A stretch of 64,000 nt of DNA from Halothiobacillaceae bacterium (GCA_028696185.1 JAQVHL010000005.1:1-64000); one strand, 5' to 3'; counted from the first letter of the stretch, positions 3,140 to 38,093 are shown. Translations and numbers: made by a program. Notes: a model not told the origin generated them from the letters alone.

Positions 3140-3297
3140 TACCGACCCCTTTGCGGAATATTTAAAGTGCGCAACGCTAGCTCAGGACCATGACACCCGG
3201 ATGACGCCATTGTGGCAATACACGGCGAAGCCTCTGGCTTGGCGGACTCACCACTCAACGCCATTGAGCGAGAAAATTAGGCGGGAAAAATCATCCT

Positions 3298-8333: not shown

Positions 8334-8410
8334 GAACAACTCGACAGACTAAACAAAGTGGACAGTGTAAGACGTTCGCCGTTCCCTGGTGGAACAGCAG
8401 GTCGCAGACC

Positions 8411-10721: not shown

Positions 10722-10885
10722 TGTTCGTTCCAGAGACTATCCACTTCAATACGGGCCGACACACAGCCGCCTTCAAAGCCTTCGCCAGTGCCGTAGGGCT
10801 CGATGCGCCAGCCTTCGCTGTCACGGCCCTCGCAACGACACGCCTCCAGGCGCAGCGTTTTGTGATCGACGATGAGGTATTCCAT
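10718..10885 (-). CDS. Small uncharacterised protein, 55 aa, coupled to rfbA
   Basis: A short frame from ATG 10885 to a TGA that overlaps the rfbA start by 4 bp (ATGA), the same coupling used by the rhamnose genes downstream. The product is acidic ([16 protein letters not shown] at the N-terminus, ending DSLWNEQ), has two cysteines near residues 16-18 and one near 41, and no signal peptide or transmembrane helix. It fills the 189-bp gap between the epimerase and rfbA, which is otherwise unexplained. The ribosome site is weak. Function unknown; it may be only a coupling leader. Confidence 0.45.
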
Positions 10886-10910
10886 CAGGCGGAGCAGCGA
10901 GCGCTGCGCG

Positions 10911-11918
10911 TCACACGCCGTAATAATCCCGATACCAGGCCACGAAGCGGCGCACGCCTTCCTCGACCGGGGTGGCGGGGTGGTAACCCACGTCGCGGCG
11001 CAGGTCATCCACATCGGCGAAGGTGTCGGGTACATCGCCCGGCTGCAGCGGCAGCAGGTGTTTTTCCGCCTTGCGTCCGATGCATTCTTCGATGACTTCG
11101 ATGTAGCGTAGCAGCTCGACCGGCGCATGGTTGCCGATATTGTAGACCCGCCAGGGTGCGCGACTGGTGCCGGGGTCAGGGTCGGAGCCACTCCACGCCG
11201 GGTTACCGGTCGCCACCTGATCGAGCGTGCGCAGGATGCCTTCGACGATGTCGTCGATGTAGGTGAAGTCGCGCCGATGCCGCCCGTGGTTGAACACCTC
11301 GATCGGCCGGCCTTCGAGAATGGCACGGGTGAATTTGAACAGCGCCATGTCCGGTCGGCCCCAGGGGCCGTACACGGTGAAGAAACGCAGCCCGGTGGTT
11401 GGCAGGCCATAGAGATGGGAATAGGTGTGGGCCATCAGCTCATTGGCCTTCTTGGTGGCCGCGTAGAGACTGAGCGGATGGTCGACGTTGTCATGCACCG
11501 AAAAGGGCAGTGTTTCGTTGGCGCCGTACACCGAGCTTGAGGAGGCGTAGACCAGGTGAGCGACACCGGCATGGCGGCAGCCTTCGAGGATGTTGCAGAA
11601 GCCGACCAGATTGCTGTCGATATAGGCCTGCGGGTTTTCGATGGAGTACCGCACGCCGGCCTGCGCGGCCAGATGTACCACCCGGTCGAAGCCCTCGGCG
11701 GCGAACAGCGCGGCGATGCCTTCGCGGTCGGCCACGTCCATGCGCACGAAGCGGAACGCCGGCGCGTTGGCAAGCGGGGCAAGGCGGGCCTCCTTGAGGC
11801 TCACCTCGTAGTAGTCGTTGAGGTTATCGAGCCCTACCACCTCGTCACCGCGATCAAGCAGGCGACGGGCCACGTGGGAGCCGATGAATCCGGCCGCGCC
11901 GGTCACGAGGATTTTCAT
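10911..11918 (-). CDS. NAD-dependent epimerase, probably UDP-glucuronate 4-epimerase
   Basis: 335 aa short-chain dehydrogenase/epimerase. Motifs are [19 protein letters not shown] (NAD site), [13 protein letters not shown] and the catalytic YAATKKANE. The phrase [18 protein letters not shown] is typical of the UDP-glucuronate epimerase group (CapI/LspL/WbnF type). That fits the gene just upstream, UDP-glucose dehydrogenase, which makes its substrate; the product would be UDP-galacturonate. The ATG at 11918 lies 6 bp after the ugd stop and has AAGGCTGA upstream. Confidence 0.88.
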
Positions 11919-22554: not shown

Positions 22555-24204
22555 TCAGGCCGGGATATCCGGAATCAAGCCCAGTTTCTCCAGACGATAA
22601 CGGAACTGGCGGGCCGTCAATCCAAGCAGCAGCGCCGCGCGGGTCTTATTGCCCCCGGTGCGGCGCAGGGCGTCGAGCAAGGCATCGGCTTCGTCCTCGC
22701 GCACCCAGCGATACCCACGCAAACCTTCGGGCAACCCCAGCTGCGACGGCGCAGAAGCGGGCGCAGGGGGCGTCTCGTGCAGGGTGCTGCGCGAGGTGCC
22801 GGCTTCAAGGTGGGTTTCAATATTGGCTTCGTGATGCAGAATCAGCTCGATATCCTCGACGCGGATCTCCCCATCCTGCGCGATGAGCACCGCTCGCTTG
22901 ACCACGTTTTCCAGCTGCCGGATGTTTCCGGGCCAGTTGTACCGTTCCAGCCGCTCCAGCACGCCGGCACCAAAGTTGGTGTTGCGGTCATACTCATGAC
23001 AGGCCACCAGCAGGAAATGCCGGGCCAGCCGCCGTACATCACCCGCCCGGTCGCGCAAGGGCGGCAGGTGGATGGGGAAAACGTTCAGGCGATAGAACAG
23101 GTCGATGCGGAAACGCCCCTCATTGACCGCTTTTTGCAGATTCTTATGCGTGGCGGCGACGATGCGCACATCCACCGGGATGTCCCGCGTGCCACCGACC
23201 CGCTTGATGAGCTGCTTTTCCAGCACATGCAAGAGCTTGGATTGCAGATCGAGGGCCAGATCACCTATCTCGTCAAGAAACAGCGTACCGCCGCTGGCCA
23301 GCTCGACGATCCCCTTCTTGGTCTGTACCGCACCGGTGAAGGCGCCTTTTTCATGCCCGAAAAGCTCCGATTCCAGCAGGTGCTCGGGAATGGCCGCACA
23401 GTTGATGGCCATGAAGGGGCCTTCGCCACGCAGGCTGGACAGATGCACCATGCGCGCGAATTTTTCCTTGCCGGTTCCCGACTCACCCGTCAGCAGGACG
23501 GTCGCCTGAGTGGGCGCCACATGCAGGGCCTGACGCAGGGCCTGACGCAGGGCCGGGCTTTCGCCCAGAATGCCATGCGCCCCTTCCACCTGCTGATCCA
23601 GCGCCTGCTTAAGGGCACGGTTCTCATCCGCGAGCAGGGCGGTACGCTCCTCGATCAGCGCATTCAGACGCAGAATCTGCGCAATGAACGTCGCCATGAC
23701 CCGCAGCAGGACGATATCGCGACTGAACGGCCGGTTGCGACGGCGCAGACGATGCGCACCCAGCACCCCCAGGGTGACCTGATCGTGCTGGATCGGCACG
23801 GCAAGAAACGACACGGTCTCCTGGGGCAGAGTGCTGCGCTGCACGGCACGGGTCAGGTACATCGGCTCATCATCGACATCCTGCACCACCGCCGCCTGGC
23901 CGCTGCGCATCACCTGGCCGGTGATTCCCTCACTGGGCCCGTACCGTCCGCGCGCACGTTCCTCGGGCGTCAGGCCATAGGCATAGCGGATATGCAAGGC
24001 GCCACTGACCGGATCCTCCAGCACGACGCGCCCCCGGTTCAGCCCCACCATCTGCGACATGAGACGCAGGATGCCCGTCACGGCGATGTCAGGCGTCGTG
24101 GCATGGGCCAGCAATCGCGCGGCCTCGTGGATAACGAGCAGATCGGCCTCCTTTTCTTCCTCCTGCGCTACGGAAGGCATATTGGGCAGAATCAGATCGT
24201 TCAT
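22555..24204 (-). CDS. Sigma54-dependent activator, GAF-AAA+-HTH (NifA-like)
   Basis: 549 aa. An N-terminal GAF domain (about residues 25-190) is followed by a AAA+ domain with Walker [13 protein letters not shown], the sigma54-contacting GAFTGA motif in [13 protein letters not shown], Walker [11 protein letters not shown] and the arginine-finger region. A Fis-type HTH at the C-terminus (about 515-545) contains [20 protein letters not shown]. The layout matches NifA and related activators, but no nif genes are present. It diverges from the nitrate-type ABC transporter, whose promoter is of the -24/-12 class, so regulating that operon is the simplest role. The ATG at 24204 has CGGGGTT upstream. 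Confidence 0.9.
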
Positions 24205-24341
24205 GGCGAACCCCGGCAACAAGTAACGAATACAGCCACCAAAGCAAGAAACAAGCCGCCTTTGTTTAACATTGTCCAGCAATGCCGTGCGTCATCGGCA
24301 AGGTTCGCTGCCCATTCACCGCGCACTGTCCATGTCCGTCA

Positions 24342-24448: not shown

Positions 24449-24494
24449 TTCTCCCAACCCGACGTCCCCACCGTGGAAGACCAGGAGAAACGCC

Positions 24495-25868
24495 ATGTCC
24501 GCCTTCAAGAATCCCTTCGACTTCAGCCTCCGCCTCAAAGGGGGCTGCACCTGCGGCAAACACCACAGCCAGGCCGAGCATGACGCCGAACAGGCACGCC
24601 TGAATGAGCCCAAGGAAGAGGAAGCCGCGCTGAATCGTGTCATCGAATCGGCCGTCGTCCGCGCCCTGTTCCCGCACGACGAGACCCGCCGCGCCTTTCT
24701 CAAGGCCGTTGGCGCCGGCACCGCCATGGCGGCGCTCTCCAGCCTGTTCCCGATGGGCGCCGCCCAGGCACTGGCCGCCGAAGGCGGACCGCTGGAAAAG
24801 AAAAACCTCAAGGTCGGCTTCGTGCCCATCACCTGCGCCACACCCATCATCATGGCCAAACCCATGGGGTTTTATGAGCGCGAAGGGCTGGATGTCGAAG
24901 TCATCAAGACGGCCGGCTGGGCCCTGGTGCGCGACAAAGTGCTGAATGCCGAATACGACGCTTCGCACATGCTCTCCCCCATGCCGATTGCCGCCAGCAT
25001 GGGTCTGGGCGCCACCCCGAACCCGACGATGGTCGCCACCATCCAGAACATCAACGGCCAGGCGATCACGATGCACGTCAAGCACAAGGACAATCGCGAT
25101 CCGAAAAACTGGAAGGGCATGAAGTTCGGCATCCCGTTCGAATACTCCATGCACAACCTGCTCTTGCGCTACTACCTGGCCGAACACGGCATCGACCCGG
25201 ACAAGGACGTGCAACTGACCGTGATCGCACCGCCGGAGATGGTCGCGAACCTGCGCGCCGGCAACATCGACGGCTTCCTCGGCCCGGAACCCTTCAATCA
25301 ACGTGCCGTATTCGAGGGCGCAGGCTTCATCCAGGTGCTGTCCAAGGATCTCTGGGAGGGGCACCCCTGCTGCGCCTTCGGCGTGACCGAGAAGTTCGTC
25401 AAGGAAGCCCCGAACACCTTCTCCGCACTCTTCCGTGCCATCGCCAACGCCACGGTCTACGCACACAAGCCGGAGAACCGCCCGGCCATCATCGAAGCCA
25501 TCGCCCCGGCCAACTACCTGAACCAGCCCATCCCGGTACTGCAGCAGGTCATGACCGGCAAGTTCGCCGACGGACTGGGCCATGTACAGAACGTACCGGA
25601 TCGCGCGGACTTCGACCCCTTCCCCTGGCAGTCGATGGGCGTGTGGATCCTCACCCAGCTCAAGCGCTGGGGCTACATCAAGCAGGACATCGACTACAAG
25701 CAGATCGCCGAACAGATCTTCCTTGCCACCGACGCGCGCGCACGCCTGAAAGACATGGGCCTGGACGCACCGGCAGAGAACTACAAGACGCACACCATCA
25801 TGGGCAAGGTGTTCGACCCCATGCAACCGAAGGCCTACGTGGAATCCTTCGCCATCCGGAGAAGCTGA
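24495..25868 (+). CDS. nrtA: Nitrate/nitrite ABC transporter substrate-binding protein (CmpA/NrtA family)
   Basis: 457 aa. It is a periplasmic binding protein of the NrtA/CmpA type: KVGFVPITCATPIIMAKPMGFYEREGLDVEV, AGWALVRDKVL and a C-terminal half with FDPFPWQSMGVWIL. A Tat signal (RRAFLKAVGAGTAMAAL) begins only at residue 65. The unusually long N-region holds a cysteine/histidine cluster, GCTCGKHHSQAEH (C18, C20, H23, H24). The ATG at 24495 has AGGAG upstream. Family members bind nitrate, nitrite, cyanate or bicarbonate, so the substrate is not fixed by sequence; the sigma54/NtrC-type promoter favours a nitrogen compound. Confidence 0.88.
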   Translation: MSAFKNPFDFSLRLKGGCTCGKHHSQAEHDAEQARLNEPKEEEAALNRVIESAVVRALFPHDETRRAFLKAVGAGTAMAALSSLFPMGAAQALAAEGGPLEKKNLKVGFVPITCATPIIMAKPMGFYEREGLDVEVIKTAGWALVRDKVLNAEYDASHMLSPMPIAASMGLGATPNPTMVATIQNINGQAITMHVKHKDNRDPKNWKGMKFGIPFEYSMHNLLLRYYLAEHGIDPDKDVQLTVIAPPEMVANLRAGNIDGFLGPEPFNQRAVFEGAGFIQVLSKDLWEGHPCCAFGVTEKFVKEAPNTFSALFRAIANATVYAHKPENRPAIIEAIAPANYLNQPIPVLQQVMTGKFADGLGHVQNVPDRADFDPFPWQSMGVWILTQLKRWGYIKQDIDYKQIAEQIFLATDARARLKDMGLDAPAENYKTHTIMGKVFDPMQPKAYVESFAIRRS

Positions 25869-25869
25869 C

Positions 25870-26715
25870 ATGGCGCGCTCACTCACCCTGCGCGCGTGGA
25901 TCGTTTCCACCGCGCTGCTTCTTGTATTCATCGGCATCTGGCAGATCGGCACCCTGCCCAAGACCGGCAGCGGTGCAACCGCTTATGCCGATCCGGAGTA
26001 CGCTGCCCTGATGGGGGGGGCCTCGACGCAAAGCGCGGGCCTGCCCACACCGGCCGCCGTGGGCCAGACCTTTGTACAGATGCTGTCCAACCCGTTCTAC
26101 GACAACGGCCCCAATGACAAGGGGATCGGCATTCAGCTGGGCTGGTCGCTGGCCCGTGTGCTGGCGGGCTTCTTCCTCGCCGCACTGGTTGCCGTTCCAC
26201 TTGGGTTCGTTATCGGCATGTCGCCCCTGATGTACAAGGCACTGAACCCGTACATCCAGCTCTTGAAGCCAATCTCGCCGCTCGCCTGGATGCCGCTTGC
26301 GCTGTACACCATCAAGGATGCGGGCACCTCCTCGATCTTCGTGATCTTCATCTGCTCGATCTGGCCGATGATGATCAACACCGCGCATGGCGTGGCCTCG
26401 GTCAAGAAAGACTGGTTGAACGTGGCCCGCACCCTGGAGGTCAACCCGCTGAAAACGGCCTTCCTTGTCATCCTGCCGGCCGCCGCACCGACCATTCTGA
26501 CCGGCATGCGCATCTCCATGGGCATTGCCTGGCTCGTGATCGTCGCAGCGGAAATGCTCGTAGGCGGCACAGGTATCGGTTACTTCGTGTGGAACGAGTG
26601 GAACAACCTCAATCTCTCCAACGTGATCTTCGCCATCCTCATGATCGGCGCGGTCGGCATGCTGCTCGACATGATCTTCGGCTGGCTGACCCGCTTCGTT
26701 ACCTACCAGGAGTAA
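25870..26715 (+). CDS. nrtB: Nitrate-type ABC transporter permease
   Basis: 281 aa, with about six transmembrane helices and the BPD-transport inner-membrane loop: VARTLEVNPLKTAFLVILPAAAPTILTGMRI (EAA-type motif split here in the middle). The ATG lies one base after the nrtA stop. NAYxxTxWxxD-like insertion sequences in the N-terminal loop (residues 35-85) are typical of NrtB. Confidence 0.9.
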   Translation: MARSLTLRAWIVSTALLLVFIGIWQIGTLPKTGSGATAYADPEYAALMGGASTQSAGLPTPAAVGQTFVQMLSNPFYDNGPNDKGIGIQLGWSLARVLAGFFLAALVAVPLGFVIGMSPLMYKALNPYIQLLKPISPLAWMPLALYTIKDAGTSSIFVIFICSIWPMMINTAHGVASVKKDWLNVARTLEVNPLKTAFLVILPAAAPTILTGMRISMGIAWLVIVAAEMLVGGTGIGYFVWNEWNNLNLSNVIFAILMIGAVGMLLDMIFGWLTRFVTYQE

Positions 26716-26720
26716 GCGCC

Positions 26721-27584
26721 ATGACCCAACCCTTCCTCAAGGTCGAAGGCCTGAAAAAAATCTTCCCCGGCCTCGGCGGCGCAGCGCCCGTCACGGTCTT
26801 CGACCACATTCACTTCGGCATCGAGAAAGGCGATTTTGCCTGCATCATAGGCCACTCCGGCTGCGGCAAGAGCACCATCCTCAATGTGCTCGCCGGACTG
26901 GACGAGGCCAGCGACGGCGTGGTGCTGATGGACGGGCGCGAAGTCGCCGGCCCAAGCCTCGACCGGGGCGTTGTGTTCCAGAGCCACGCCCTGATGCCCT
27001 GGCTTACCGTCAGCGAGAATGTCGGTTTTGCCGTCAAGTCGCGCTGGCCGGAGTGGTCCCGCGAACAGGTGCGCGAACACGCCCGCAAATACATCGAGAT
27101 GGTCGGCCTGGGGCACGCGATGGACAAAAAGCCGCACCAGCTCTCAGGCGGCATGAAACAGCGCGTCGGCATCGCCCGCGCCTTCTCCATCGAACCGAAA
27201 ATGCTGCTCATGGACGAGCCCTTTGGCGCGCTGGATGCGCTCACCCGCGGGGTGATTCAGGACGAGCTGGTAAAAATCTGTGCGGCCACGCAACAAACCG
27301 TGTTCATGATCACCCACGACGTGGACGAGGCCATCCTGCTCGCCGACAAGATTCTGCTGATGTCCAACGGCCCGCAGGCCAAAATCGCGGAAATCGTTGA
27401 AAACACACTGCCTCGCCCGCGCAGTCGGGTGGAAATGCACCACAACCCAAACTTCTACGCGCTGCGCAACCACTTGGTCGATTTTCTCGTCAGCCGCTCG
27501 AAGAAAATCGCCGAAGGCGAGCTACCGAAGGACTACAGCCCGGAGCATCCGCCCATCATCCGCCCTATGGCGAAAGCCGCCTGA
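26721..27584 (+). CDS. nrtC: Nitrate-type ABC transporter ATP-binding protein
   Basis: 287 aa single-domain ATPase (NrtD-like, without the extra substrate-binding domain of cyanobacterial NrtC). Walker A is GHSGCGKSTILNVLAG, the signature is LSGGMKQRVGIARAF, and Walker B is MLLMDEPFGALDALTR, followed by the His switch ITHDVDEAI. The C-terminus carries a 40-residue extension (YALRNHLVDFLVSRSKKIAE). It is the last gene of the operon and is followed by a strong terminator. The symbol could equally be nrtD. Confidence 0.9.
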   Translation: MTQPFLKVEGLKKIFPGLGGAAPVTVFDHIHFGIEKGDFACIIGHSGCGKSTILNVLAGLDEASDGVVLMDGREVAGPSLDRGVVFQSHALMPWLTVSENVGFAVKSRWPEWSREQVREHARKYIEMVGLGHAMDKKPHQLSGGMKQRVGIARAFSIEPKMLLMDEPFGALDALTRGVIQDELVKICAATQQTVFMITHDVDEAILLADKILLMSNGPQAKIAEIVENTLPRPRSRVEMHHNPNFYALRNHLVDFLVSRSKKIAEGELPKDYSPEHPPIIRPMAKAA

Positions 27585-27599
27585 CCACACAAAATCAAC

Positions 27600-27642
27600 C
27601 GAGGCATTTCACGCACCAATGCGTGAAATGCCTCGTTTTTTT
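27600..27642 (+). terminator. Intrinsic terminator of nrtABC
   Basis: A 16-bp perfect stem (CGAGGCATTTCACGCA and its complement) with loop CCAA, followed by seven T residues. Confidence 0.95.
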
Positions 27643-27704: not shown

Positions 27705-27821
27705 ATTTCATAATCTACGCTTATGGTTCATGAAGGCGCCATCGCCGAATGCAAAACTGAGCTGTCCGCTCAGTTGCATGGCCCTCTGCATGCGCGCATA
27801 ATTGATATGCACTAAAAATTT

Positions 27822-27854
27822 CTTATGCCTTCGGGGCCGTCCCGAAGGCATAAG
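27822..27854. repeat. 14-bp perfect inverted repeat in the oxidase leader
   Basis: CTTATGCCTTCGGG, a 5-nt loop GCCGT, then CCCGAAGGCATAAG. There is no T run, so it is not a terminator. In RNA it would form a very stable hairpin ending about 46 nt before the ribosome site. In DNA it could be an operator. Confidence 0.7.
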
Positions 27855-27912
27855 ACCGAACAGCCGGCGCAAGCCGGGTTTGTGTCCCTGCCAACCTCAC
27901 AGGAGGATCCTT

Positions 27913-29322
27913 ATGGACATGATCGGTCTGTACCCCACATGGTACGAACCGGGCATCGGCAGCGGGTGGGTAATCGGCATCATCGCCACCATCCACGTGC
28001 TGTTCTCCCACGTTTCCGTGGGCGCCGCCCTTTTCTTCGCCTGGCTTGCCACCGTGGCCTATCAGCAAAACAAGCCCGAACTTCTCGAATTCATCAAGAA
28101 GTACGGGCTTTTTCTGTTGATCTTCTCTTACGTACTTGGTTCCATCACCGGACCCGGTATCTGGTACTCCACCACCGTTGGCAGCCCGCGCGGCATCTCG
28201 GCGCTGATCCACAGCTTCGTGTGGAAATGGGCGACCGAATGGGTCTTCTTCGTGATCGAGGTGATCGGTATCTACCTGATCGTCTACCTCGTTGGCCGGG
28301 TCGATCAACGCACTCACCTGCGCATCGCCTACATCTTCGGCCTGTCCTCGCTGACCACCATGCTCATCATCGTCGGCATCCTGTCGTTCATGATGTGGCC
28401 GGGTAAAGAAGCGTGGTTTGTCGATGGCGGCTATCTGAACGGCTTCTACGGTCCCAACACCTTTGCCCAGCTTGCCATGCGCTTCGCGTTCATGTTCTCC
28501 ATGACCGCCGTGGTCGGGGGTATTGTCGCGGCCGGCATGAAGGACTATGCGCTCAAGGCCTACATCACCCGCCGTCTGGCCATCCTCGGTATCGTGGCGA
28601 CGCTCGCCGGCGCCGCCATGTTCCAGTGGTACCTCTCCACGCTGCCCGAGCATGCGGCCCTGATCATGGAAAACCGCCTGCCCGCGTGGTTCAACACCGG
28701 CATCCTCTCCATCCTGGCGGGTACCCTTGCCTACTTCGTCGTCACGCTGATCCAGCCACGCGTCCTTGTGACCTCCCTGGCCAGCGTCATGACCGTTGCC
28801 ATCGTGGTATTCGGTCTGTGGCCCGAGGAAGTGGCGCGCGAATCCATCCGCAAGCCCTATGTCGCCGGTCAGTACATTTACTCGAACCAGGTGATCTCCC
28901 GCGACGTGCCCGGCATGGGTATCAAGAGCGAGATTCCGGTGCTTGAAGAACATGGCTTCCTGAAAACCATGGCCTTCCTGCCGGACAGTCAGCGCACCGT
29001 CACCCCGCAGAATGCACATGAAGTCGGTCGCTCACTGGCCATCACGGCCTGCTCGAATTGCCACTCGCTCAGCGAAACCGGCATTCGCCCGATGAAGAAC
29101 TACTTCGGCGGCAACACCGATGTCGCGATGATCCGCAGCTACCTGCTTGGGGCACTCGCAACCGGCAACACGCTGTACATGCCGAAAATCCCGCTCAAGC
29201 CGGATGAGGCCGAAGCCCTGGCCGTGTACCTCGCCAGCCTGTCCGACCCCACTGTGGCCGAACGCTATGCGCGCGAAAAAAGCGCCGTTGCCGCCGTCGC
29301 CCCCGCAGCTGTAAAGGAGTAA
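27913..29322 (+). CDS. Cytochrome bd superfamily oxidase subunit I with fused c-type cytochrome domain
   Basis: 469 aa. Residues 15-350 are a CydA-like membrane region with about nine helices: ATIHVLFSHVSVG (H28 aligns with the conserved first-helix heme-ligand His of CydA), IFSYVLGSITGPGIWYSTT, and TEWVFFVIEVIGIYLIVY with the conserved Glu. After the last helix, residues 375-455 form a periplasmic c-type cytochrome domain with CSNCH (C380, C383, H384) and a Met-Pro near YMPKIPL. No His occurs in the helices where CydA has its b558 ligand, and the quinol loop is not recognisable. This fits the cytochrome-c-bearing branch of the bd superfamily, not a quinol oxidase. The ATG at 27913 has AGGAGG upstream. 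Confidence 0.8.
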   Translation: MDMIGLYPTWYEPGIGSGWVIGIIATIHVLFSHVSVGAALFFAWLATVAYQQNKPELLEFIKKYGLFLLIFSYVLGSITGPGIWYSTTVGSPRGISALIHSFVWKWATEWVFFVIEVIGIYLIVYLVGRVDQRTHLRIAYIFGLSSLTTMLIIVGILSFMMWPGKEAWFVDGGYLNGFYGPNTFAQLAMRFAFMFSMTAVVGGIVAAGMKDYALKAYITRRLAILGIVATLAGAAMFQWYLSTLPEHAALIMENRLPAWFNTGILSILAGTLAYFVVTLIQPRVLVTSLASVMTVAIVVFGLWPEEVARESIRKPYVAGQYIYSNQVISRDVPGMGIKSEIPVLEEHGFLKTMAFLPDSQRTVTPQNAHEVGRSLAITACSNCHSLSETGIRPMKNYFGGNTDVAMIRSYLLGALATGNTLYMPKIPLKPDEAEALAVYLASLSDPTVAERYAREKSAVAAVAPAAVKE

Positions 29323-29326
29323 GCCG

Positions 29327-30559
29327 ATGGATGCATCCACGCTCTATGCCCTGAGGGACGCCGCAGGCGTTCCCTCCCACCCGGTGATCTTCCTGATCCT
29401 CGGCGTGGCCACCTGGGCGCTGCACATTGCCGCCGTCCACGTCATGCTTGGCGCCTCGGCGCTCACGCTGTGGGGCGCATTCTCCAAGGATGATCTCAAG
29501 CGCCGCCTGGCGGCCACCATGCTCAACACGGCCAAGGTGTCGGTGTCGATCGCGATTGTGATCGGCGTGGCCCCCCTGCTGTTCGTGCAGGTCATCTACG
29601 ACCCGTTTTGGTACGCCTCCAACGTACTGTCCGCCTGGTGGGTCATCGGCTTCATCGTCATTCTGATCCTGGGCTATCTGGCGATGTACGTCTTCTACTA
29701 CGCCAACAAGGACCTGACCGCGAAGAAAGGTGTCACCTGCCCCGGTTCGATGGTGATCTCCATCGCGCTCCTGCTGGTTGTAGGCTTCATCATGCATGTA
29801 CTGACCCAGCAGATGCTCTCACCGGAGAAGTGGGTTGAATGGTATGCGCCGAATGGCGTGATCAATGCCAGCGGCCAGAAAATCCACGACTACAACATCT
29901 GGCGCTTCCTGTTCTTCATCTCCCTGTCCGCCCCGGTCACCGGTGCCTGGCTGCTCGCCATGCGCCGCTACCTGCAGGGCAAGGAAGCCGGTGAAGATGC
30001 CAACTACCTCGCCCTGCTCGGCTCGCTGGCTCAGAAGCTGGCCATCATCGGCGGCTTGGTTGTGGTCGTGTTCGGTGCACTGTGGATGGCGACCCTGCCG
30101 GAAAAAGCCGCAGGTTTCGCCCTCTCCCCGTGGGTCATCGTCACCGCCGTCGCCCTGATCGGCACCGTGCTGCTGCCGACCCTGCTGGGCAAAAAGCTCG
30201 ACACTGGGTTCTGGGGCTTTGCTCCGTTCGCGGTGGGCGCGGTTGCGCTGATTATCCTCGGCACCGCCCGTGAAGCCCTGCGTTTCACCATCCTCTACGG
30301 TGTTCACGGGTACAACCCGCTGGACTACAAAATCGTAATGGACTGGTACAGCACCATCCTGTTCTTCGGCACCTTCGCCATCATCGGCGGCGCCGCCTTG
30401 GCCTACATGCTGACTGTCGCCTGGCAGGTCGGCCAGAGCAAGGAAAAGGTCTACACCCCCTCGCCTGCGGTAGACAAGATTGGCACGGTCGCCATCTGGC
30501 TGATCGTCGCCTGGATGGTGCAGTTCTTCGCCATCGGCTTCTACGTCTGGGTCCGTTGA
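29327..30559 (+). CDS. Second membrane subunit of the bd-like oxidase
   Basis: 410 aa with about ten transmembrane helices. It begins only 4 bp after subunit I. An early helix has WALHIAAVHVMLGASALTLWGAF, a histidine arrangement like the first helix of the CydA fold; later come FIMHVLTQQMLSPEKW, SAPVTGAWLLAMRRYLQG and ALRFTILYGVHGYNPLDYKIVMDWYSTILFF split over the last helices. It lacks a c-type heme motif. It is CydA/CydB-like and presumably forms the heterodimer with subunit I. Its own heme content cannot be settled from sequence. Confidence 0.7.
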   Translation: MDASTLYALRDAAGVPSHPVIFLILGVATWALHIAAVHVMLGASALTLWGAFSKDDLKRRLAATMLNTAKVSVSIAIVIGVAPLLFVQVIYDPFWYASNVLSAWWVIGFIVILILGYLAMYVFYYANKDLTAKKGVTCPGSMVISIALLLVVGFIMHVLTQQMLSPEKWVEWYAPNGVINASGQKIHDYNIWRFLFFISLSAPVTGAWLLAMRRYLQGKEAGEDANYLALLGSLAQKLAIIGGLVVVVFGALWMATLPEKAAGFALSPWVIVTAVALIGTVLLPTLLGKKLDTGFWGFAPFAVGAVALIILGTAREALRFTILYGVHGYNPLDYKIVMDWYSTILFFGTFAIIGGAALAYMLTVAWQVGQSKEKVYTPSPAVDKIGTVAIWLIVAWMVQFFAIGFYVWVR

Positions 30560-30567
30560 CCCTGTAA

Positions 30568-30592
30568 CCCCCGCCAACGGCGGGGGTTTTTT
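30568..30592 (+). terminator. Intrinsic terminator after the bd-like oxidase genes
   Basis: Stem CCCCCGCC/GGCGGGGG with loop AAC, then six T residues. It separates the oxidase transcript from the fcc genes, although read-through is possible. Confidence 0.9.
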
Positions 30593-30600
30593 CATTAAAA

Positions 30601-30638
30601 TGACGCATAACCCATAAAATGCACTGGTTATGGTGTCA
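30601..30638. promoter_or_regulatory. Imperfect dyad in the fccA promoter region
   Basis: TGACGCATAACC, a 13-nt spacer, and GGTTATGGTGTCA. The inner arms CATAACC/GGTTATG are perfect, and the outer TGAC/GTCA match with a one-base bulge. It is followed by TAAG and six T residues, so it could be a regulator site or an RNA hairpin. TAGAAT at 30648-30653 is a possible -10. Confidence 0.4.
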
Positions 30639-30706
30639 TAAGTTTTTTAGAATTATCCGACGGGCGCCGCCCTTCACTCATACAAACTCAAAATGAGGTG
30701 TCGACC

Positions 30707-31015
30707 ATGCTGTCCAGACCCCTTCTTGCGCTCGCAGGCGCGCTTGCCCTTGTCGTGGGAACCGCAAGCGCCGCTCCGATCGCCACCGGCGAAATGCTCG
30801 CCAACTCCTGCGCCGGCTGCCACGGCACGAACGGCCGTATCAGCAACTCTGCTTTCATGCCACTCGCCGGTATGCCCCAGGAGCAGTTCGTACGCACCAT
30901 GACCGACTTCCGTGAAGGGCGACGCTCCTCCACGCTGATGGGACATGTGGCCAAAGGCTATTCCGATGAAGAACTCAAAGCCATGGCGGCTTTCTTCGCC
31001 AGCGTCAAACCCTGA
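30707..31015 (+). CDS. fccA: Flavocytochrome c sulfide dehydrogenase, monoheme cytochrome subunit
   Basis: 102 aa. A signal peptide (about 1-22, ending TASA) precedes a class I c-type cytochrome with one heme site CAGCH (C35, C38, H39) and Met residues in FMPLAGMPQEQF. It is the heme partner of the FAD subunit that follows 14 bp later. The ATG at 30707 has GAGGTG upstream; an in-frame GTG three codons earlier is less likely. FccA in Allochromatium carries two hemes, so this is the shorter one-heme type. Confidence 0.9.
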   Translation: MLSRPLLALAGALALVVGTASAAPIATGEMLANSCAGCHGTNGRISNSAFMPLAGMPQEQFVRTMTDFREGRRSSTLMGHVAKGYSDEELKAMAAFFASVKP

Positions 31016-31029
31016 GGGAGGAGCCCAGC

Positions 31030-32424
31030 ATGAATCGTCGTGAATTTCTCAAGTTTGCCGGCGCCACCTCCCTGGCCGCTGCCTTCCCGGTCCGCTCGGC
31101 ATTCGCCGGAGCTCAGCCGCATGTTGTTGTTGTTGGCGGGGGCGTGGGTGGTGCCACTTTCGCCAAATACCTGAAAATGGCGGACAAGAACATCAAGGTC
31201 ACCCTCATCGAGAAAAATCCGGTCTATATCCGTCCGTACGGCTCATCCGAGGTGCTCACCGGCCATATCCAGATGAAAGACCTGGATGTGACCTACGATG
31301 CACTCAAATCCCGCTATGGGGTTGAGATGCTGATCGATACCGTCGTTGGTTTCGACCCGGACAAGAAAACCGTCAGCACCGCCGGCGGCAAGTCGCTGGC
31401 CTATGATCGCCTGATTGTATCCCCCGGCATCGAGCTCAAGTACGAAGCCATTGAAGGCTATTCGGAAGCCATTGCCAACACCAAGGTCCCCTCGGGATGG
31501 ATTCCCGGCGCGCAGACTCAGTTGCTGGCTGACCAAATCAAGAGCATTCCCAAGGGGGGCACCTTCCTGCTGGTCGCTCCGCCGAACCCCTACCGTTGCC
31601 CGCCGGGCCCATATGAGCGTTCCGCCCTCGTAGCGGAGTGGTTCAAGAAGCACAACCCGACCGCCAAGGTGCTGATTCTCGATCCGAAGGATGCCTTCGT
31701 GACCGACACCACCATGCAGCAGGGCTGGAACCGTCTGTACGGTTACAAGATGCCCAAGTCCTTTGAAGAGAAGTTCGTTGAAGAGCTTCGCAAGTTCAAG
31801 GTCTTCTCCGCGCAGGAAGGCGTGGACGCGCTGTATGCCAAGGGCATTCTCAAGCGCAACAGCGGCCCCAGCATGATCAGCTGGGTTACCGGCAAGGAAG
31901 GCGGGCGTGTACTTAAACTCGATGCGGCCAACATGACCGTCGAGGCTGAGAACGGCGTTCATAAAGCCGATGTAATCAACATCGTCCCGCCGATGGTGGC
32001 TGGCACCATTGCGCAGAAGATGGGGCTGACCGATAAATCCGGCTGGTGCCCGATCAAGCGCGAAAGCTTCGAATCGACAGTACATAAGGACGTTCACGTC
32101 CTCGGTGACTCGTCCATCGCCGACGCCATGCCCAAGTCCGGCTTTTCCGCCAACACCCAGGCTAAAGTTGCCGCATTGGCTGTCGCGGCTTCCCTCAAGG
32201 GCCAGCAGCCGGGCATTCCCTCCTGGGAAAACACCTGCTACGCCCTCGCCGGTTCCGACTACGGTTTCTTCGTGGCCGATGTCTTCGCACTCAAGGAAGG
32301 CAAGATCACCAACGTTTCGGGCCATCGCTACCTGCCGCTCAACGCCAGCGAGGCGCAAATCCGCCTCGGCGCCGTCTATCAGCAGGCCTGGATGAAATCG
32401 TTCACCGACGACTGCTTCGCGTGA
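31030..32424 (+). CDS. fccB: Flavocytochrome c sulfide dehydrogenase, FAD subunit
   Basis: 464 aa. A Tat signal (RREFLKFAGATSLAAAF) is followed by the FAD Rossmann motif HVVVVGGGVGGATFAKYL. The redox-active disulfide is C190 in YRCPPGPYER and C403 in ENTCYA, matching the catalytic pair of Allochromatium FccB. FESTVHKDVHVLGDSSIADAMPKSGFSAN is the conserved C-terminal FAD region (given here split by motif: VHVLGDSSIA, MPKSGFSAN). The Cys that normally binds FAD covalently is replaced by Pro (NPVYIRPYGSSEV), and there is no Cys at all before residue 190. It oxidises sulfide in the periplasm and passes electrons to FccA. Confidence 0.93.
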   Translation: MNRREFLKFAGATSLAAAFPVRSAFAGAQPHVVVVGGGVGGATFAKYLKMADKNIKVTLIEKNPVYIRPYGSSEVLTGHIQMKDLDVTYDALKSRYGVEMLIDTVVGFDPDKKTVSTAGGKSLAYDRLIVSPGIELKYEAIEGYSEAIANTKVPSGWIPGAQTQLLADQIKSIPKGGTFLLVAPPNPYRCPPGPYERSALVAEWFKKHNPTAKVLILDPKDAFVTDTTMQQGWNRLYGYKMPKSFEEKFVEELRKFKVFSAQEGVDALYAKGILKRNSGPSMISWVTGKEGGRVLKLDAANMTVEAENGVHKADVINIVPPMVAGTIAQKMGLTDKSGWCPIKRESFESTVHKDVHVLGDSSIADAMPKSGFSANTQAKVAALAVAASLKGQQPGIPSWENTCYALAGSDYGFFVADVFALKEGKITNVSGHRYLPLNASEAQIRLGAVYQQAWMKSFTDDCFA

Positions 32425-32435
32425 GGAACCCCGAG

Positions 32436-33152
32436 ATGAAAAAGACTCTGACCCTGATTGTCGGCGGCTTGCTGGCCGCCTCCCTCGGTGTCGCGCAGGC
32501 GGCCGATCATGCTGCAGCGAAAGCCGAAGCATGGACGCCTGGCGCACTGCAAAAAGCGCTGGCCGGCATGCCCAAGGGCGATGCCACCCGCGGCAAGACC
32601 CTCAATACCCAGCTGATGTGTGCCTCCTGCCACGGGGACGTGGGTCTGGCCCCGACCCACAACTGGCCGCACACAGCGGGCCAGCGCGCCGAGTACACCT
32701 ACAAGATGCTGCTGGACTACAAGAGTGGTCTGCGCAACGACGGTGAGCGCGCCAGGCTCATGAACACGGTGGCCGCCATAATGAGCGAGCAGGACATGGC
32801 CGATGTAGCGGCCTACTATGCCGCCCAGCCGCTGCCGGCCCCCCTGCCGCAAAGCCTGCCTGCTGATGTGTATGCCAAGACCGACGCACTGGTACGCCAG
32901 GGTGACCCGACCCGATTGATCACCCCCTGCGCTGCCTGCCACGGTCTGCATGGACAGGGCGGGTTCAATGAAACCCCGGCCCTGGCTGGCCAGAACCCCC
33001 AAGCCTTCATCCGCACCATGCAGGCTTACAAGGACGGTAGCCGCCATAACGACACCAACAAGGGCATGGCCCAGTTCGCCGAGCGCCTCACCAATGAGGA
33101 AATCGAGCATCTGGCCGCCTATTACGCTTCTCAGGTCGCTCCCGCGAAGTGA
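32436..33152 (+). CDS. Diheme cytochrome c4-type protein
   Basis: 238 aa. A signal peptide (1-22, ending VAQA) is followed by two tandem class I cytochrome domains with CASCH and CAACH, and repeated terminal helices ending AAYYAAQ and AAYYASQ. This is the c4 two-domain layout. It is 11 bp after fccB, so it is probably the electron acceptor of FccAB or the link to an oxidase. The ATG at 32436 is used; a GTG at 32421 overlaps the fccB stop. Confidence 0.9.
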   Translation: MKKTLTLIVGGLLAASLGVAQAADHAAAKAEAWTPGALQKALAGMPKGDATRGKTLNTQLMCASCHGDVGLAPTHNWPHTAGQRAEYTYKMLLDYKSGLRNDGERARLMNTVAAIMSEQDMADVAAYYAAQPLPAPLPQSLPADVYAKTDALVRQGDPTRLITPCAACHGLHGQGGFNETPALAGQNPQAFIRTMQAYKDGSRHNDTNKGMAQFAERLTNEEIEHLAAYYASQVAPAK

Positions 33153-33197: not shown

Positions 33198-33223
33198 GCC
33201 CGGCTCCCCGCCGGGCTTTTTTT
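33198..33223 (+). terminator. Intrinsic terminator after the fcc cluster
   Basis: Stem GCCCGGC/GCCGGGC with loop TCCCC, then seven T residues. Confidence 0.92.
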
Positions 33224-33280: not shown

Positions 33281-34318
33281 TCAGAACGCCGACTGCTCCG
33301 CCTCCAGATACGCAAGACTTGTGTAACTACCGATATTCTCGTTGAAGCCCTTGGTAACGGGAGCCCACTTTTTCACGCGCGGATCGGCCAGCACCATGGA
33401 CTTGGCCTCTTCAAACGACTTCATTTCCTTCACCGCCTGTACGCAGCTCTGGAAGATGCCATCGAACAGCTCACGATTGTGCTTGATGACATCCGGGCCC
33501 GGCTCGCCATGCCCTGGCAGCCAGAGGCTGCCCGGTACGTTTTTCTCCAGTGCATCGAAGGTCTTGAAAGTCCCCAGATAGGAGCCGTCCTCCATGAAGG
33601 CAATGCGCCGATCCATGGCGACATCCCCCACATGCACCACCTTGTCCTCGACCACTTCCATGCAGATGTCCGCCGGGGTGTGCGCCGTTCCGTAATGGTG
33701 GATGCGAAGGGTCACATCGCCGAACTTGAGTTCCGATCCATGATCGACCTCCTTGTTCGGTGCGGTGACGATGGTACCGATGCTGGCGTTGTCCGTGGCG
33801 CGCTCCATCAGGTTTTTCCAGTGGTCGCCCTGGCCGCCCTGACGAATCGCTGCGATGGTCTTCGGATGCGCATAGATGGGGATGTCCGGATAGGCATTGA
33901 CGAACGCATGGTTACCCAACCAGTGGTCGCCGTGATAATGACTATTGATGACGGCGATGACGGGCTTGTCCGTGATTTTTTTAAGCTGGCGCAAAGCCAT
34001 TTCACCGATCTGCAGGGAGGCACCCGAGTCGAGCACCACCACGCCCTCCTTGGTAAGAACGAAGGTGATGTTGCTCATCATTCCCTGGTTCTGCGGATTG
34101 GCGAACCCATCCGGGGAAATGATGACCCACACATGCCCGGAAATTTGAGTGGCAGGAATATCCTTCACAGGCGGCCCTTTGATGACCATTTCCGCCTCTT
34201 TGGCAAAGGCGCGCATCGGCAACAGGGCCGGAGTGACGGCGGCCAGGGCCGCAAGCCCGGAAAGCTTGCGCAGGAACTGGCGACGCCCGGCATCGCCCAG
34301 GTTGTTTTCAAACGGCAT
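33281..34318 (-). CDS. Tat-exported metallo-beta-lactamase-fold hydrolase (SoxH-like)
   Basis: 345 aa. A twin-arginine signal (RRQFLRKLSGLAALAAV) is followed by an MBL fold with the zinc motif SHYHGDHW (H127, H129, D131, H132), further His in GTAHTPADI, Asp in HVGDVAMDRR and His in LPGHGEPG. It resembles SoxH and the quinoprotein-relay metallohydrolases, which have been implicated in sulfur or alcohol metabolism without a settled reaction. It converges with the fcc cluster and is monocistronic. Confidence 0.82.
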   Translation of the reverse strand: MPFENNLGDAGRRQFLRKLSGLAALAAVTPALLPMRAFAKEAEMVIKGPPVKDIPATQISGHVWVIISPDGFANPQNQGMMSNITFVLTKEGVVVLDSGASLQIGEMALRQLKKITDKPVIAVINSHYHGDHWLGNHAFVNAYPDIPIYAHPKTIAAIRQGGQGDHWKNLMERATDNASIGTIVTAPNKEVDHGSELKFGDVTLRIHHYGTAHTPADICMEVVEDKVVHVGDVAMDRRIAFMEDGSYLGTFKTFDALEKNVPGSLWLPGHGEPGPDVIKHNRELFDGIFQSCVQAVKEMKSFEEAKSMVLADPRVKKWAPVTKGFNENIGSYTSLAYLEAEQSAF

Positions 34319-34468: not shown

Positions 34469-35821
34469 ATGAAGCGCGCCGCCCTGCTCCTGCTCCCCCT
34501 CTTCTCTCCCCTCGCCCTGGCCGAATTCCAGTTCCAGCCCTCGGTATTTCTGGATGGCGCCTGGTATGGCGACAGTGTTCACGGTGAAGGCAACAACATG
34601 ATCCTCAACAGCCCCGGCCTGCAGAACACCCACGCCCACGGCGGCGATGAGCACGATCACGCCGGCGGCGGTCACAATCATGGCACCGACGTGCGCGAAG
34701 GGCTCAATCTACGCTATGCGGAAACGACACTTTACGGACTGCTGCCTGGCGTATTCGACACCCGAACCAACATCACGTTCAGCCCCCGCGCGGGCGAGGT
34801 CAGTGTCGAGGAGTTCTGGTTTCGCAGCCTGGGGCTGCCCGCCGGACTGCAGGTGAAGGCCGGCAAGTTCCTCTCCGACATCGGCTATCTGAACAACCAG
34901 CACCCGCACCAATGGGACATGGCCGACGCGCCGCTGGCCTATCAACTCCTGCTGGGTGGTGCGCTCAACCAGACCGGCGTTCAGCTCAACTGGACGCCTC
35001 CCCTGCCCTGGTACACCCGCCTGGGTATGGAAATCTCGCAGGGCGAGAACAGCGGCTACGCCAGCGTAATGGGGCCGGCGACCCTGCACCACGAGCATGA
35101 GGAAGAAGAGCAAGGCGAGGAAGAGCCCGCCGTGCAAGTCCCCTTCGACAGTCGCTACAACGGCGCCCGCATGGTGACCGCCTTTGTGAAGATCGCCCCG
35201 GAAATCGGTGATGACCATGCCCTGCAGTTGGGCGCGTTCTGGTCACGTTCCCGCCAGCATCAGGAGCTCCACGAACCGCACCCTGGCGTCAATGCCGCAC
35301 TGCACGGCATGCAAGGCAGCGCCTGGATAGCCGGTGCGGACGTGGTATACAAATACGACGCTCCCCAGGCTTACGGCGTGGGCGATCTCAAGATTCAGGC
35401 GGAATACATCTACCAGAACAAGGATCTGCGCCTGACCTACCACGAACTGCAGCCCGGTCTGGTCGGCCAGCCGCGCGAACTGCGTCAGGACGGTTTCTAC
35501 GTCCAGGCCCAGTACGGCATCCTGCCACGCTTTACCCTGGGGGCACGCTACGACATGACCGGCCTCACCCACGAAGCACTCCGCGCCGGCTCGACACGCG
35601 GCCCGACCACGCCCTCCTATTTTGAAGACATGAAGCGCGTCACGGCGGCCCTCACCTGGCATATCACCGAAACCCAGAAGCTGCGCTTCCAGGTCGCACG
35701 CACCAATGCACCGGTCGGTGTGGATGACGGCGCCGCAGGCCGTGTCGAACGTCAAAGCTTCAATCAGTACTACATCCAGTACCAGATTGGCTTCGGCGCG
35801 CATGCCGCCCACGGTTTCTGA
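34469..35821 (+). CDS. Histidine-rich outer-membrane barrel protein of the zinc operon
   Basis: 450 aa. A signal peptide (1-17, ending ALA) precedes a porin-like beta-barrel ending in Phe (HAAHGF), typical of outer-membrane proteins. Two metal-rich loops stand out: residues about 48-70 (HAHGGDEHDHAGGGHNHG) and about 211-224 (HHEHEEEEQGEEEP). No TonB box or plug domain is present, so this is not a TonB-dependent receptor. It lies 9 bp before znuA and is controlled by the same operator, so zinc capture or passage across the outer membrane is a fair inference. The ATG at 34469 is the start that gives a signal peptide. Confidence 0.75.
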   Translation: MKRAALLLLPLFSPLALAEFQFQPSVFLDGAWYGDSVHGEGNNMILNSPGLQNTHAHGGDEHDHAGGGHNHGTDVREGLNLRYAETTLYGLLPGVFDTRTNITFSPRAGEVSVEEFWFRSLGLPAGLQVKAGKFLSDIGYLNNQHPHQWDMADAPLAYQLLLGGALNQTGVQLNWTPPLPWYTRLGMEISQGENSGYASVMGPATLHHEHEEEEQGEEEPAVQVPFDSRYNGARMVTAFVKIAPEIGDDHALQLGAFWSRSRQHQELHEPHPGVNAALHGMQGSAWIAGADVVYKYDAPQAYGVGDLKIQAEYIYQNKDLRLTYHELQPGLVGQPRELRQDGFYVQAQYGILPRFTLGARYDMTGLTHEALRAGSTRGPTTPSYFEDMKRVTAALTWHITETQKLRFQVARTNAPVGVDDGAAGRVERQSFNQYYIQYQIGFGAHAAHGF

Positions 35822-35830
35822 GGAGCCCCC

Positions 35831-36718
35831 ATGAAACGATTCCTCCTCGCGGCCCTGTTGCTCCTGTGTCAATCCGGAGCGCAGGCCGCACTCAAGGTCG
35901 TCACCACGACCCCCGCGATGGCCGCCCTGACGCGCGCCGTGGGTGGAGAGCATGTCCAGGTGAGCACGCTGGTAGGCAACGACCGCGACGCCCACATGCT
36001 CCAGGTCAAGCCCAGCATGATGCGCGCGGTCCGCGATGCCGACCTGGTCGTCGCCGTGGGCGCCGACCTCGAAGCCGGCTGGCTGCCCGAGGTGCTGGCC
36101 AGCGCCGGCAATCCGCGCGTTCAGACCGGCCGACCGGGCCATTTCGAAGCCGCCATGCAGGTCGAGCGGCTCCCCGACCCGCCCAGCAGCGGCTTTTCCG
36201 CTCACCTGCACCGCTACGGCAACCCGCATATCAATCTTGATCCGCTACGCATGGCCCAGGCAGGCGAATCCCTGGCCCGTACCCTTGCCGGGCTCGACAC
36301 CGCCCACGCCGATGACTTTCACCGTCAGGCCGCGGCCTTTCGTGCCGCCGTCGAAGCCCGCCTGCCTGTGTGGCGCGAAAGCCTGAAAGGGGCACAAGGA
36401 GCGGTGCTTTACCATCGCGACGCGGTCTACCTGCTGGACCGCTTCGGCCTGAAGCTGCTCGGCACCCTGGAACCCGTACCCGGCGTTCCCCCCACGGCGA
36501 ATCATCTGCGCGAACTGGCCGCTCAGTTGCAAGGGCAGAAAGGTGTCATCGTCCAGGCGCCCTGGCATGCGCCCGATGGACCGCGCCAGCTCTCAGAACT
36601 GACCGGGCTGCCGATACGCATCCTGCCGCTGGACCCACCCGCCGATGCCGACGGGCAAGCCTACCTGCGCCTGATCGACGCCTGGGTAGAGGCACTGGCC
36701 GCCGGCGGCACGCCATGA
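35831..36718 (+). CDS. znuA: Zinc ABC transporter substrate-binding protein
   Basis: 295 aa. A signal peptide (1-19) is followed by a cluster A-I metal-binding protein. Candidate metal ligands are the His in DRDAHMLQVKPSM, the His in YGNPHINLDPLRMAQ and a His/Asp pair in the C-terminal half. The charged His-rich loop usual in ZnuA is short here. It precedes znuC with an ATGA overlap. Confidence 0.88.
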   Translation: MKRFLLAALLLLCQSGAQAALKVVTTTPAMAALTRAVGGEHVQVSTLVGNDRDAHMLQVKPSMMRAVRDADLVVAVGADLEAGWLPEVLASAGNPRVQTGRPGHFEAAMQVERLPDPPSSGFSAHLHRYGNPHINLDPLRMAQAGESLARTLAGLDTAHADDFHRQAAAFRAAVEARLPVWRESLKGAQGAVLYHRDAVYLLDRFGLKLLGTLEPVPGVPPTANHLRELAAQLQGQKGVIVQAPWHAPDGPRQLSELTGLPIRILPLDPPADADGQAYLRLIDAWVEALAAGGTP

Positions 36719-37275
36719 CGCTGCTGGTCGCCCGGCAACTGCAGGCCGGCCACGAGCGGGCGCTCTGCGCGCCGCTCGACTTTGAACTGGCTCCCGGCGA
36801 AACCCTCGGCCTGCGCGGCCCTAATGGCGCCGGCAAGACCACCTTGCTGCGCACGCTCACCGGGCAAATACCGCCCTTTGCCGGCAGCGTGACCCGGCGC
36901 CCCGGTCTACGCTTCGCCGTGCAGGCACAGCACCCGCATCGCCCGCGCGATTTACCGCTCAGCGCACGCGACTACCTGGCGCTGCTCGGCACGCCCGCCG
37001 AAGCCCCGGCCGACATCGCCGCGCTGTTCAGCAAACGCATTGATCGCTTAAGCGGCGGCCAGTTTCAGCTTCTGCACCTCTGGGCGCTGCTCTCCACACC
37101 CGGCGACATCCTGGCGCTGGACGAGCCAACCAACAACCTTGATCCTCAGCGCATCGACCGCCTTCTCGAACTGCTTGCCCAACGGCGCCCCGGCGTTGCC
37201 GCCCTTGTCGTCAGCCACGACGCCGACTTTCTCGAACGCACCGGCGCGCGCGTACTCACCCTGGAGCCCTCATGA
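36715..37275 (+). CDS. znuC: Zinc ABC transporter ATP-binding protein
   Basis: 186 aa, short for the family (usually about 230-260). Walker A is GPNGAGKTTLLRTLTG, signature LSGGQFQLLHLW, Walker B ILALDEPTNNLD, and His switch VVSHDADFL. The region between Walker A and the signature is shortened. Starts and stops overlap znuA and znuB by 4 bp each. Confidence 0.88.
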   Translation: MTLLVARQLQAGHERALCAPLDFELAPGETLGLRGPNGAGKTTLLRTLTGQIPPFAGSVTRRPGLRFAVQAQHPHRPRDLPLSARDYLALLGTPAEAPADIAALFSKRIDRLSGGQFQLLHLWALLSTPGDILALDEPTNNLDPQRIDRLLELLAQRRPGVAALVVSHDADFLERTGARVLTLEPS

Positions 37276-38093
37276 GCGCCCTGGATGTGTTCGCCCTGCC
37301 CTTCCTCAATGGCCTGCTGGCCAGCCTGCTTCTGGGCGGGATCGGTCTTTTGTTGTTTGCACGTCGCGACTGGCTGGCAGCACTGGGTATTTCTCAAATC
37401 GCCGCCGCAGGCGCGCTCATCGGTACCGCCAGCGGCATCCCCGCCCTGCTGGCCGCCCCCGCCACGGCGCTGGTGGCCGCCGACCTCAAGCGCCGCCTCC
37501 AGCTGGGTGCGCTGGGCTATGGCGTGATGATCCTCGCGGGCTGGTCCACGGTAATGCTTCTGGCGGCCAACACCCCCCTGGGGGACGCCCTTGCCCACGC
37601 ACTGGTCGACGGCCAACTCTACTTCACCCGCGTGGAACACCTGGCGGCCCTGCTCCCCCTGGCTGTGGCCCTGCCCCTACTCTGGAAGCGCCTGAGCCGC
37701 GCCCTGCTGCGCGCGCGCCTTTTTCCCGAGCACGAACAGGCCAACGGCCAACCCGACCGCCGCCTGCAAGCCTTATTCGAATGGCTGGCCGCCCTGCTGC
37801 TGGCGCTGGGCACCCTGACCCTGGGTGTCATGGCCAGCTTCGCCCTCGTCCTGCTGCCGGCCTGGACGGCGTCACGGCTCGCGCCCAACCTGCGTCTTGC
37901 CGTTCTGCTCTGTCTGTCCCTGGCCCTGGGAGCCTACCTGATCGCCTTTGAACTGGCCCTGCGGCTTGACCAACCCTTCGGCCCGGTACTGGTTGCCAGC
38001 GCACTTATCTTGTGTGCCCTGACCCGCGCCGGGCATACTGCCGCGATGAAACTGACACACGAGCGCACCGGTACCCCCCATGACCGCGCATGA
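37272..38093 (+). CDS. znuB: Zinc ABC transporter permease
   Basis: 273 aa, about eight transmembrane helices of the ABC-3 family: FLNGLLASLLLGGIGLLLF at the N-terminus and LGTLTLGVMASFALVLLPAWTASRL-like late helices. The ATGA overlap with znuC shows coupling, and the stop lies inside zur. Confidence 0.88.
   Translation: MSALDVFALPFLNGLLASLLLGGIGLLLFARRDWLAALGISQIAAAGALIGTASGIPALLAAPATALVAADLKRRLQLGALGYGVMILAGWSTVMLLAANTPLGDALAHALVDGQLYFTRVEHLAALLPLAVALPLLWKRLSRALLRARLFPEHEQANGQPDRRLQALFEWLAALLLALGTLTLGVMASFALVLLPAWTASRLAPNLRLAVLLCLSLALGAYLIAFELALRLDQPFGPVLVASALILCALTRAGHTAAMKLTHERTGTPHDRA

Follow-up and report, generated by a model that had tools for sequence, protein, structure and literature searches.

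In a 64-kb window from a Halothiobacillaceae-like genome (the window being the whole stretch of DNA that was analysed), we found that five consecutive genes at 27913-33152 probably encode a dedicated, quinol-free respiratory module, in which electrons would pass from sulfide to the flavocytochrome c sulfide dehydrogenase (FCSD) FccAB, then to a diheme cytochrome c4, to a bd-type cytochrome c oxidase and finally to O2. The genes encode the oxidase subunits I and II, FccA, FccB and cytochrome c4, all in the order and at the places given by a preliminary description of this DNA, which had proposed a candidate quinone-independent sulfide oxidase chain. As a candidate, this chain is supported by the conserved linkage of fccAB and c4 to the oxidase, by a separate FccB lineage and by the missing quinol-side residues of subunit I. 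The novelty is the fixed coupling of the parts, not the individual parts.

We looked at gene linkage in 61 loci that were retrieved with subunit I alone, fccB not being used in the selection. Results showed that fccB adjoins subunit I in 55 of the 61, and that in the other six (L026, L028, L047, L055, L058 and L071) a contig edge precedes the expected fccB, three of these already showing fccA. The preliminary description had advised a genome search for such co-occurrence and had made its proposal depend on a neighbourhood conserved in relatives; this neighbourhood exists, as all 55 testable relatives keep fccAB, and c4 is also beside the oxidase in nearly all of them. A chance neighbourhood was rejected considering that the arrangement recurs in every testable relative, and the five-gene arrangement is far beyond chance. 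The order I-II-fccA-fccB-c4 was found in 48 of the 54 loci with all four genes intact, and the order fccA-fccB-I-II-c4, where fccAB is upstream yet still adjoining, in the remaining 6/54, which belong to Halothiobacillus and Guyparkeria relatives. Locus L069 was recounted among the 54 because its apparent alternative fccAB order was an artefact of a duplicated subunit I-subunit II pair; in this locus of Thiomicrorhabdus heinhorstiae (2951-11268), two copies of the pair flank one fccA-fccB-c4 set, a tandem duplication.

Linked hosts belong to the Gamma-, Beta- and Alphaproteobacteria and are for the most part sulfur oxidisers; they include Thiothrix, Thiomonas, Thiobacillus, Rhodoferax and Thioalkalivibrio sulfidiphilus, as well as Thiomicrorhabdus, Hydrogenovibrio, Sulfurivirga, Marinobacterium and Roseospira. 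When the class was sampled evenly, the close members were linked to fccAB and three more distant ones were unlinked. Clustering of all flanking open reading frames (ORFs) revealed no sixth conserved gene, merely local synteny in one genus group. The spacing between the two halves of the cluster was also informative. In 24 of the 47 loci with fccAB downstream, the subunit II-fccA gap is at most 20 nt or the genes overlap, which argues for a single operon of oxidase and fccAB in those loci; in the window the gap is 147 nt with a terminator inside. The earlier suggestion of possibly separate transcripts for the two halves is therefore fair for the window, but roughly half of the loci with downstream fccAB have the short gap.

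We also asked how the linkage arose. The subunit I tree united all fccB-linked sequences in a single clade (support 97/92), and the fccAB-oxidase linkage has one common origin. L103, which branches off next, has c4 and lacks fccAB; beyond it lie the paralogues from Halothiobacillaceae, which are accompanied by a monoheme cytochrome c, and then more distant forms, the deepest branches being long and their exact order unsure. In the FccB tree, the 61 linked sequences were separated from 25 of the 26 unlinked ones (100/100). The sole exception belongs to L048 (1175-3531), where an additional set of fccA, fccB and c4, of the oxidase-linked type, has no subunit I-subunit II pair of its own and sits about 3.5 kb upstream of a complete linked cluster. 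Across the five proteins, evolutionary distances correlated (subunit I with subunit II 0.90, with c4 0.72 and with fccB 0.61; 0/2000 permutations), values computed without a housekeeping gene, so that co-evolution is not separable from shared descent. Oxidases outside the linked clade still have a cytochrome c partner and are without fccAB. In distant members this partner is fused to subunit II, as a diheme cytochrome c in L104 (606 aa; about 6364-9546, minus strand) and as a monoheme one in L106, L169 and L170, and these fusions point to cytochrome c as the donor to this oxidase. In the simplest history, FccAB would have been recruited a single time, by an oxidase already fed by cytochrome c, and retained from then on.

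Sequence comparison left the membrane part of subunit I, with about 8 predicted helices, at the edge of recognition. Its match to the Pfam bd model (PF01654) gave an E-value of 0.0024, short of the cut-off; 13 of 29 relatives matched this model (best 2.7e-6), and a paralogue in the same genome exceeds the cut-off. A fold search was needed because PDB sequence searches with profiles returned cytochrome c domains only for subunit I and nothing useful for subunit II. The AlphaFold model of subunit I matched CydA chains with a Foldseek probability of 1.00 (E 1.6e-5), and Foldseek found the bd subunit fold in both subunits. The C-terminal heme c domain carries C380-S-N-C383-H384 and M423, and CXXCH is present in every full-length homologue. 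A bd-like subunit I with a C-terminal c-type domain, as first described, is therefore confirmed.

To see which part of a bd enzyme is retained, we compared subunit I with CydA of E. coli cytochrome bd-I, in which the roles of the residues are established. Invariant in 69 homologues are H28, H33, E109, E116, R190, E306, E310, R313, K314, P315 and the CXXCH/Met heme c ligands; 68 of the 69 also have H100. Alignment with hhalign paired H28 with CydA H19 and E116 with E107, and a weaker block alignment (RESIRKPYVAG versus AEYGRQPWAIG) paired E310 with E445 and R313 with R448; a correspondence of E109 to E99 is plausible. As for the heme b558 ligands, CydA H186 has no His counterpart in subunit I, its position aligning beside R190 in hhalign, and a counterpart of M393 was looked for and not found. 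A Q-loop between helices 6 and 7 is also missing. Since H28, E116, E310 and R313 are kept and H186, M393 and the Q-loop are missing, the ligands for the two hemes of the O2 site appear to be retained and the quinol-oxidising side appears to be lost, which fits quinone independence of the oxidase. A c-type heme joined to a bd core and missing quinol-side features are both traits of the OR-C class, and, judged by its fold and its retained ligands, the oxidase is a member of the bd superfamily and OR-C-like.

Subunit II gave a good model (pLDDT 90.7) with a cytochrome bd-like fold of the CydA/CydB kind, the best TM-score being 0.65 to CydA of Geobacillus (5doq_A). We rejected its identification as CydB, as there was neither an alignment nor a sequence match to CydB and instead a homology to subunit I (hhalign 96%, 1.5e-9). 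The name "bd-like subunit II" used previously thus holds for the fold; the protein is a paralogue of subunit I and not a recognisable CydB. Being homologous to subunit I and unalignable with CydB, it makes the pair resemble a CydAA' arrangement more than CydAB. The window protein has no CXXCH; it keeps the helix 1 histidine H33 together with E316 and R319 and is without the acidic pair of subunit I helix 3, so that subunit II could bind heme and yet fall short of a complete active site.

The other three genes bore out the identities first assigned to them. FccB matched Pfam FCSD_central (5.8e-39) and 1fcd_A (1.9e-106), the best match of FccA was the FCSD heme subunit 1fcd_C (6.3e-20), and the last gene, with two CXXCH and two class I domains, best matched cytochrome c4 (6q2u, 6.7e-25). 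FccA has a single CXXCH in 58/58 loci, and the redox cysteines C190 and C403 of FccB are present in 87/87 rows, linked and unlinked. Flavoprotein domains, the cysteines of the redox-active disulfide and an adjoining gene for a cytochrome c subunit are therefore all found, as expected of an FCSD. The cysteine linking FAD (C42 of A. vinosum) is present in all 26 unlinked rows and replaced in 33 of the 61 linked ones, the position being P69 in the window; covalent FAD through this Cys is a trait of characterised FCSD and is not demanded of all members. The subclade of the window FccB has in addition an insertion of 19-41 aa, around residues 240-281 in the window. These changes might serve docking on the oxidase or shift the flavin potential.

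Taken together, a working scheme can be proposed. In the periplasm, FccB would oxidise sulfide with FAD and its redox disulfide and pass the electrons to the FccA heme, from which the diheme c4 would ferry them to the C-terminal heme c domain of subunit I. The b/d-type hemes in the membrane part would then reduce O2 to water with protons from the cytoplasm, subunit II acting as a structural, possibly heme-bearing, partner, and no quinol would be used anywhere in the chain. We infer that the parts react together, in this carrier order, with O2 as acceptor and with energy conserved by charge separation. Sulfide strongly inhibits heme-copper oxidases and not bd enzymes (PMC4815019), which would give the arrangement a purpose: with an oxidase of the bd type that accepts electrons from cytochrome c, FccAB could probably keep running at sulfide levels that block heme-copper enzymes such as the cbb3 oxidase of this genome. 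More tentatively, FccAB, c4 and the oxidase might form one physical sulfide:oxygen oxidoreductase, free of heme-copper and quinone, with FccB reshaped to dock; we find this rather doubtful, and if it were true, sulfur bacteria could respire sulfide at levels poisoning their other cytochrome c oxidases.

Could the electrons flow in the opposite sense? The bd-like complex might push electrons from FccAB and c4 uphill into the quinone pool, in the manner of alternative complex III (ACIII), to supply NADH for CO2 fixation. There are autotrophs among the hosts, in Nitrospina a quinone-reducing role has also been proposed for the bd-like oxidase that lies next to nitrite oxidoreductase (PMC3578206), and in Foldseek both subunits also matched NrfD/PsrC and ACIII membrane subunits, though less strongly (2vpw_C, 6lod_F and 8k9e_C). 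However, CydA chains were the best fold matches, the Q-loop and b558 ligands are missing while the O2-site ligands are invariant, and a bc1 complex is already available for uphill flow, which makes this route unlikely.

We then considered the rest of the genome, for which oxidases, bc1, FccB and CydA were assessed by family searches. These found one heme-copper oxidase, of the cbb3 type as judged from an adjoining ccoG, one cytochrome b of a bc1 complex, and a second FccB that groups with ordinary FccB in the tree; no canonical CydA was found. A second oxidase of the same kind, 54% identical, is encoded elsewhere (L084, G000:C94; subunit I' 8978-10372 and subunit II' 7749-8975, minus strand), followed by a monoheme cytochrome c near 7431-7640 and without fccAB, a set that is repeated in five other Halothiobacillaceae. 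Given that the genome encodes cbb3 and bc1, that a paralogue works without fccAB and that a terminator lies between the halves in the window, the association might reflect co-regulation only: FccAB and c4 would feed cbb3 classically, and the bd-type enzyme would be a separate, sulfide-induced scavenger of O2 or nitric oxide (NO). We judge this improbable, as every subunit I has a c-type domain, distant subunits II are fused to cytochrome c, the FccB lineage is private and fccAB adjoins the oxidase in two different positions across three classes; it keeps some weight because FccAB electrons could also reach cbb3. Least probable is that the complex reduces NO or sulfur species rather than O2 with cytochrome c as donor: the literature searched shows no assay of a member of this branch, and H33 and H100 deviate from canonical CydA, but the hosts are mostly aerobic sulfur oxidisers and the conserved residues are those of the O2-reducing site.

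Several observations also weigh against the dedicated sulfide-to-O2 module that we favour. The confidence of the subunit I model is moderate (pLDDT 70.9), the mapping of E310 and E109 comes from weak local alignments, and H33 and H100 are extra conserved histidines relative to canonical CydA, without an assigned role. The window terminator splits the oxidase half from the fccAB-c4 half, within its order only about half of the genomes have the oxidase, and cbb3 with bc1 gives FccAB and c4 another possible outlet for their electrons.

The features of the cluster are listed in the table. Both the terminator and the dyad described earlier between the halves were recovered, and the dyad could be a second terminator-like hairpin or a regulator site. 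The inverted repeat upstream of subunit I has no T-run on the plus strand, and a promoter scan found no sigma-70-like site.

Table. Genes and intergenic elements of the oxidase-fccAB-c4 cluster in the window.
Feature	Position	Strand	Remarks
Inverted repeat 5' of subunit I	27821..27855	.	perfect 15 bp, 5 nt loop, 57 bases before subunit I
Subunit I, bd-type membrane domain and C-terminal class I cytochrome c domain	27913..29322	+	469 aa
Subunit II, multi-helix membrane paralogue of subunit I, CydA'-like	29327..30559	+	410 aa; starts 4 bases after subunit I
Intrinsic terminator between the two halves (subunit II / fccA)	30566..30588	+	10 bp stem, then T-run
Gapped dyad ATGACGCATAACC / GGTTATGGTGTCAT	about 30600..30639	+	stem-loop -13.3 kcal/mol (ViennaRNA), then TTTTTT
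fccA, one-heme cytochrome subunit of FCSD	30707..31015	+	102 aa counted from ATG
fccB, FAD subunit of FCSD	31030..32424	+	464 aa, twin-arginine translocation (TAT) signal
Cytochrome c4, diheme, signal peptide	32436..33152	+	238 aa; likely electron shuttle to the oxidase
Terminator 3' of c4, closing the cluster	33198..33216	+	

Among the neighbours, a SoxH/PQQ-relay-like hydrolase of the metallo-beta-lactamase fold adjoins the cluster (33281-34318, minus strand), and homologues of it lie near the cluster in L045, L053, L067 and L072. A sigma-54 activator-like protein, judged from reading the sequence alone, is encoded at 22555-24282 (minus strand); related ORFs are near the cluster in L025, L029, L048 and L059. 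Upstream of the cluster, an ABC importer (NMT1-type binding protein, permease and ATPase) occupies 24489-27584 and is closed by a strong terminator at 27600-27635. A possible zinc uptake set, composed of a beta-barrel with a His-rich stretch, a ZnuA-like protein, an ATPase and a membrane component, lies at 34472-38093.

Non-quinol branches of the bd superfamily have been named from genomes, and the electron donors of the described members lack assays in the literature covered. The linkage names a candidate donor for a cytochrome-c-type bd oxidase, with partners co-inherited across three classes, and what feeds such an oxidase becomes testable in cultivable Thiothrix, Thiomonas, Thioalkalivibrio sulfidiphilus and Guyparkeria. 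If true, there would be a sulfide-to-O2 route bypassing both quinone and heme-copper oxidase, and "cytochrome d ubiquinol oxidase" annotations in sulfur oxidisers may be mislabels. Our literature search, which covered selected matches and outside which the paper defining OR-C lay, found no description of the fccAB-oxidase linkage. One table of PMC5733100 gives FCC and "CydAB", there labelled a ubiquinol oxidase, a shared presence pattern in four Hydrogenovibrio strains, which fits the linkage.

Among known systems, OR-C, a class reportedly defined by Murali et al. 2021, shares with our oxidase a bd-type core without quinol site, a c-type heme presumed to be the electron entry and a sparse distribution. 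Here, in contrast, there is a fixed partner set of FccAB and c4 and subunit II is a paralogue of subunit I, the assignment to OR-C being made by description; the division into qOR, OR-C and OR-N is used in PMC10839748, PMC11707229 and PMC13189123. The OR-N or CydAA' oxidases of nitrite oxidisers (PMC3578206, PMC12342949) are similar in their bd-like core without quinol site, in a proposed pairing of paralogous subunits and in their link to a periplasmic dehydrogenase, theirs being nitrite oxidoreductase, and to mono- and diheme cytochromes c, as in the gene neighbourhood of PMC3578206. They differ in that the dehydrogenase here oxidises sulfide and that subunit I carries a heme c domain fused to it and has about 8 helices instead of 14. 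Canonical E. coli CydAB shares the fold, H19, E107 and, tentatively, counterparts of E99, E445 and R448, whereas here the b558 ligands, Q-loop and CydB are absent and a heme c domain is added. FccAB resembles that of Allochromatium (1fcd; 5n1t) in its flavoprotein and heme subunits, redox cysteines and TAT export of the flavoprotein, but it has a one-heme FccA and a separate FccB lineage, in which the subclade of the window shows the replaced FAD-linking Cys and the insertion. Finally, like the c4 of bc1-cbb3 supercomplexes (6q2u, 8smr), the diheme c4 would shuttle electrons to an oxidase; here, however, it is encoded beside an oxidase of the bd type and not of the heme-copper type.

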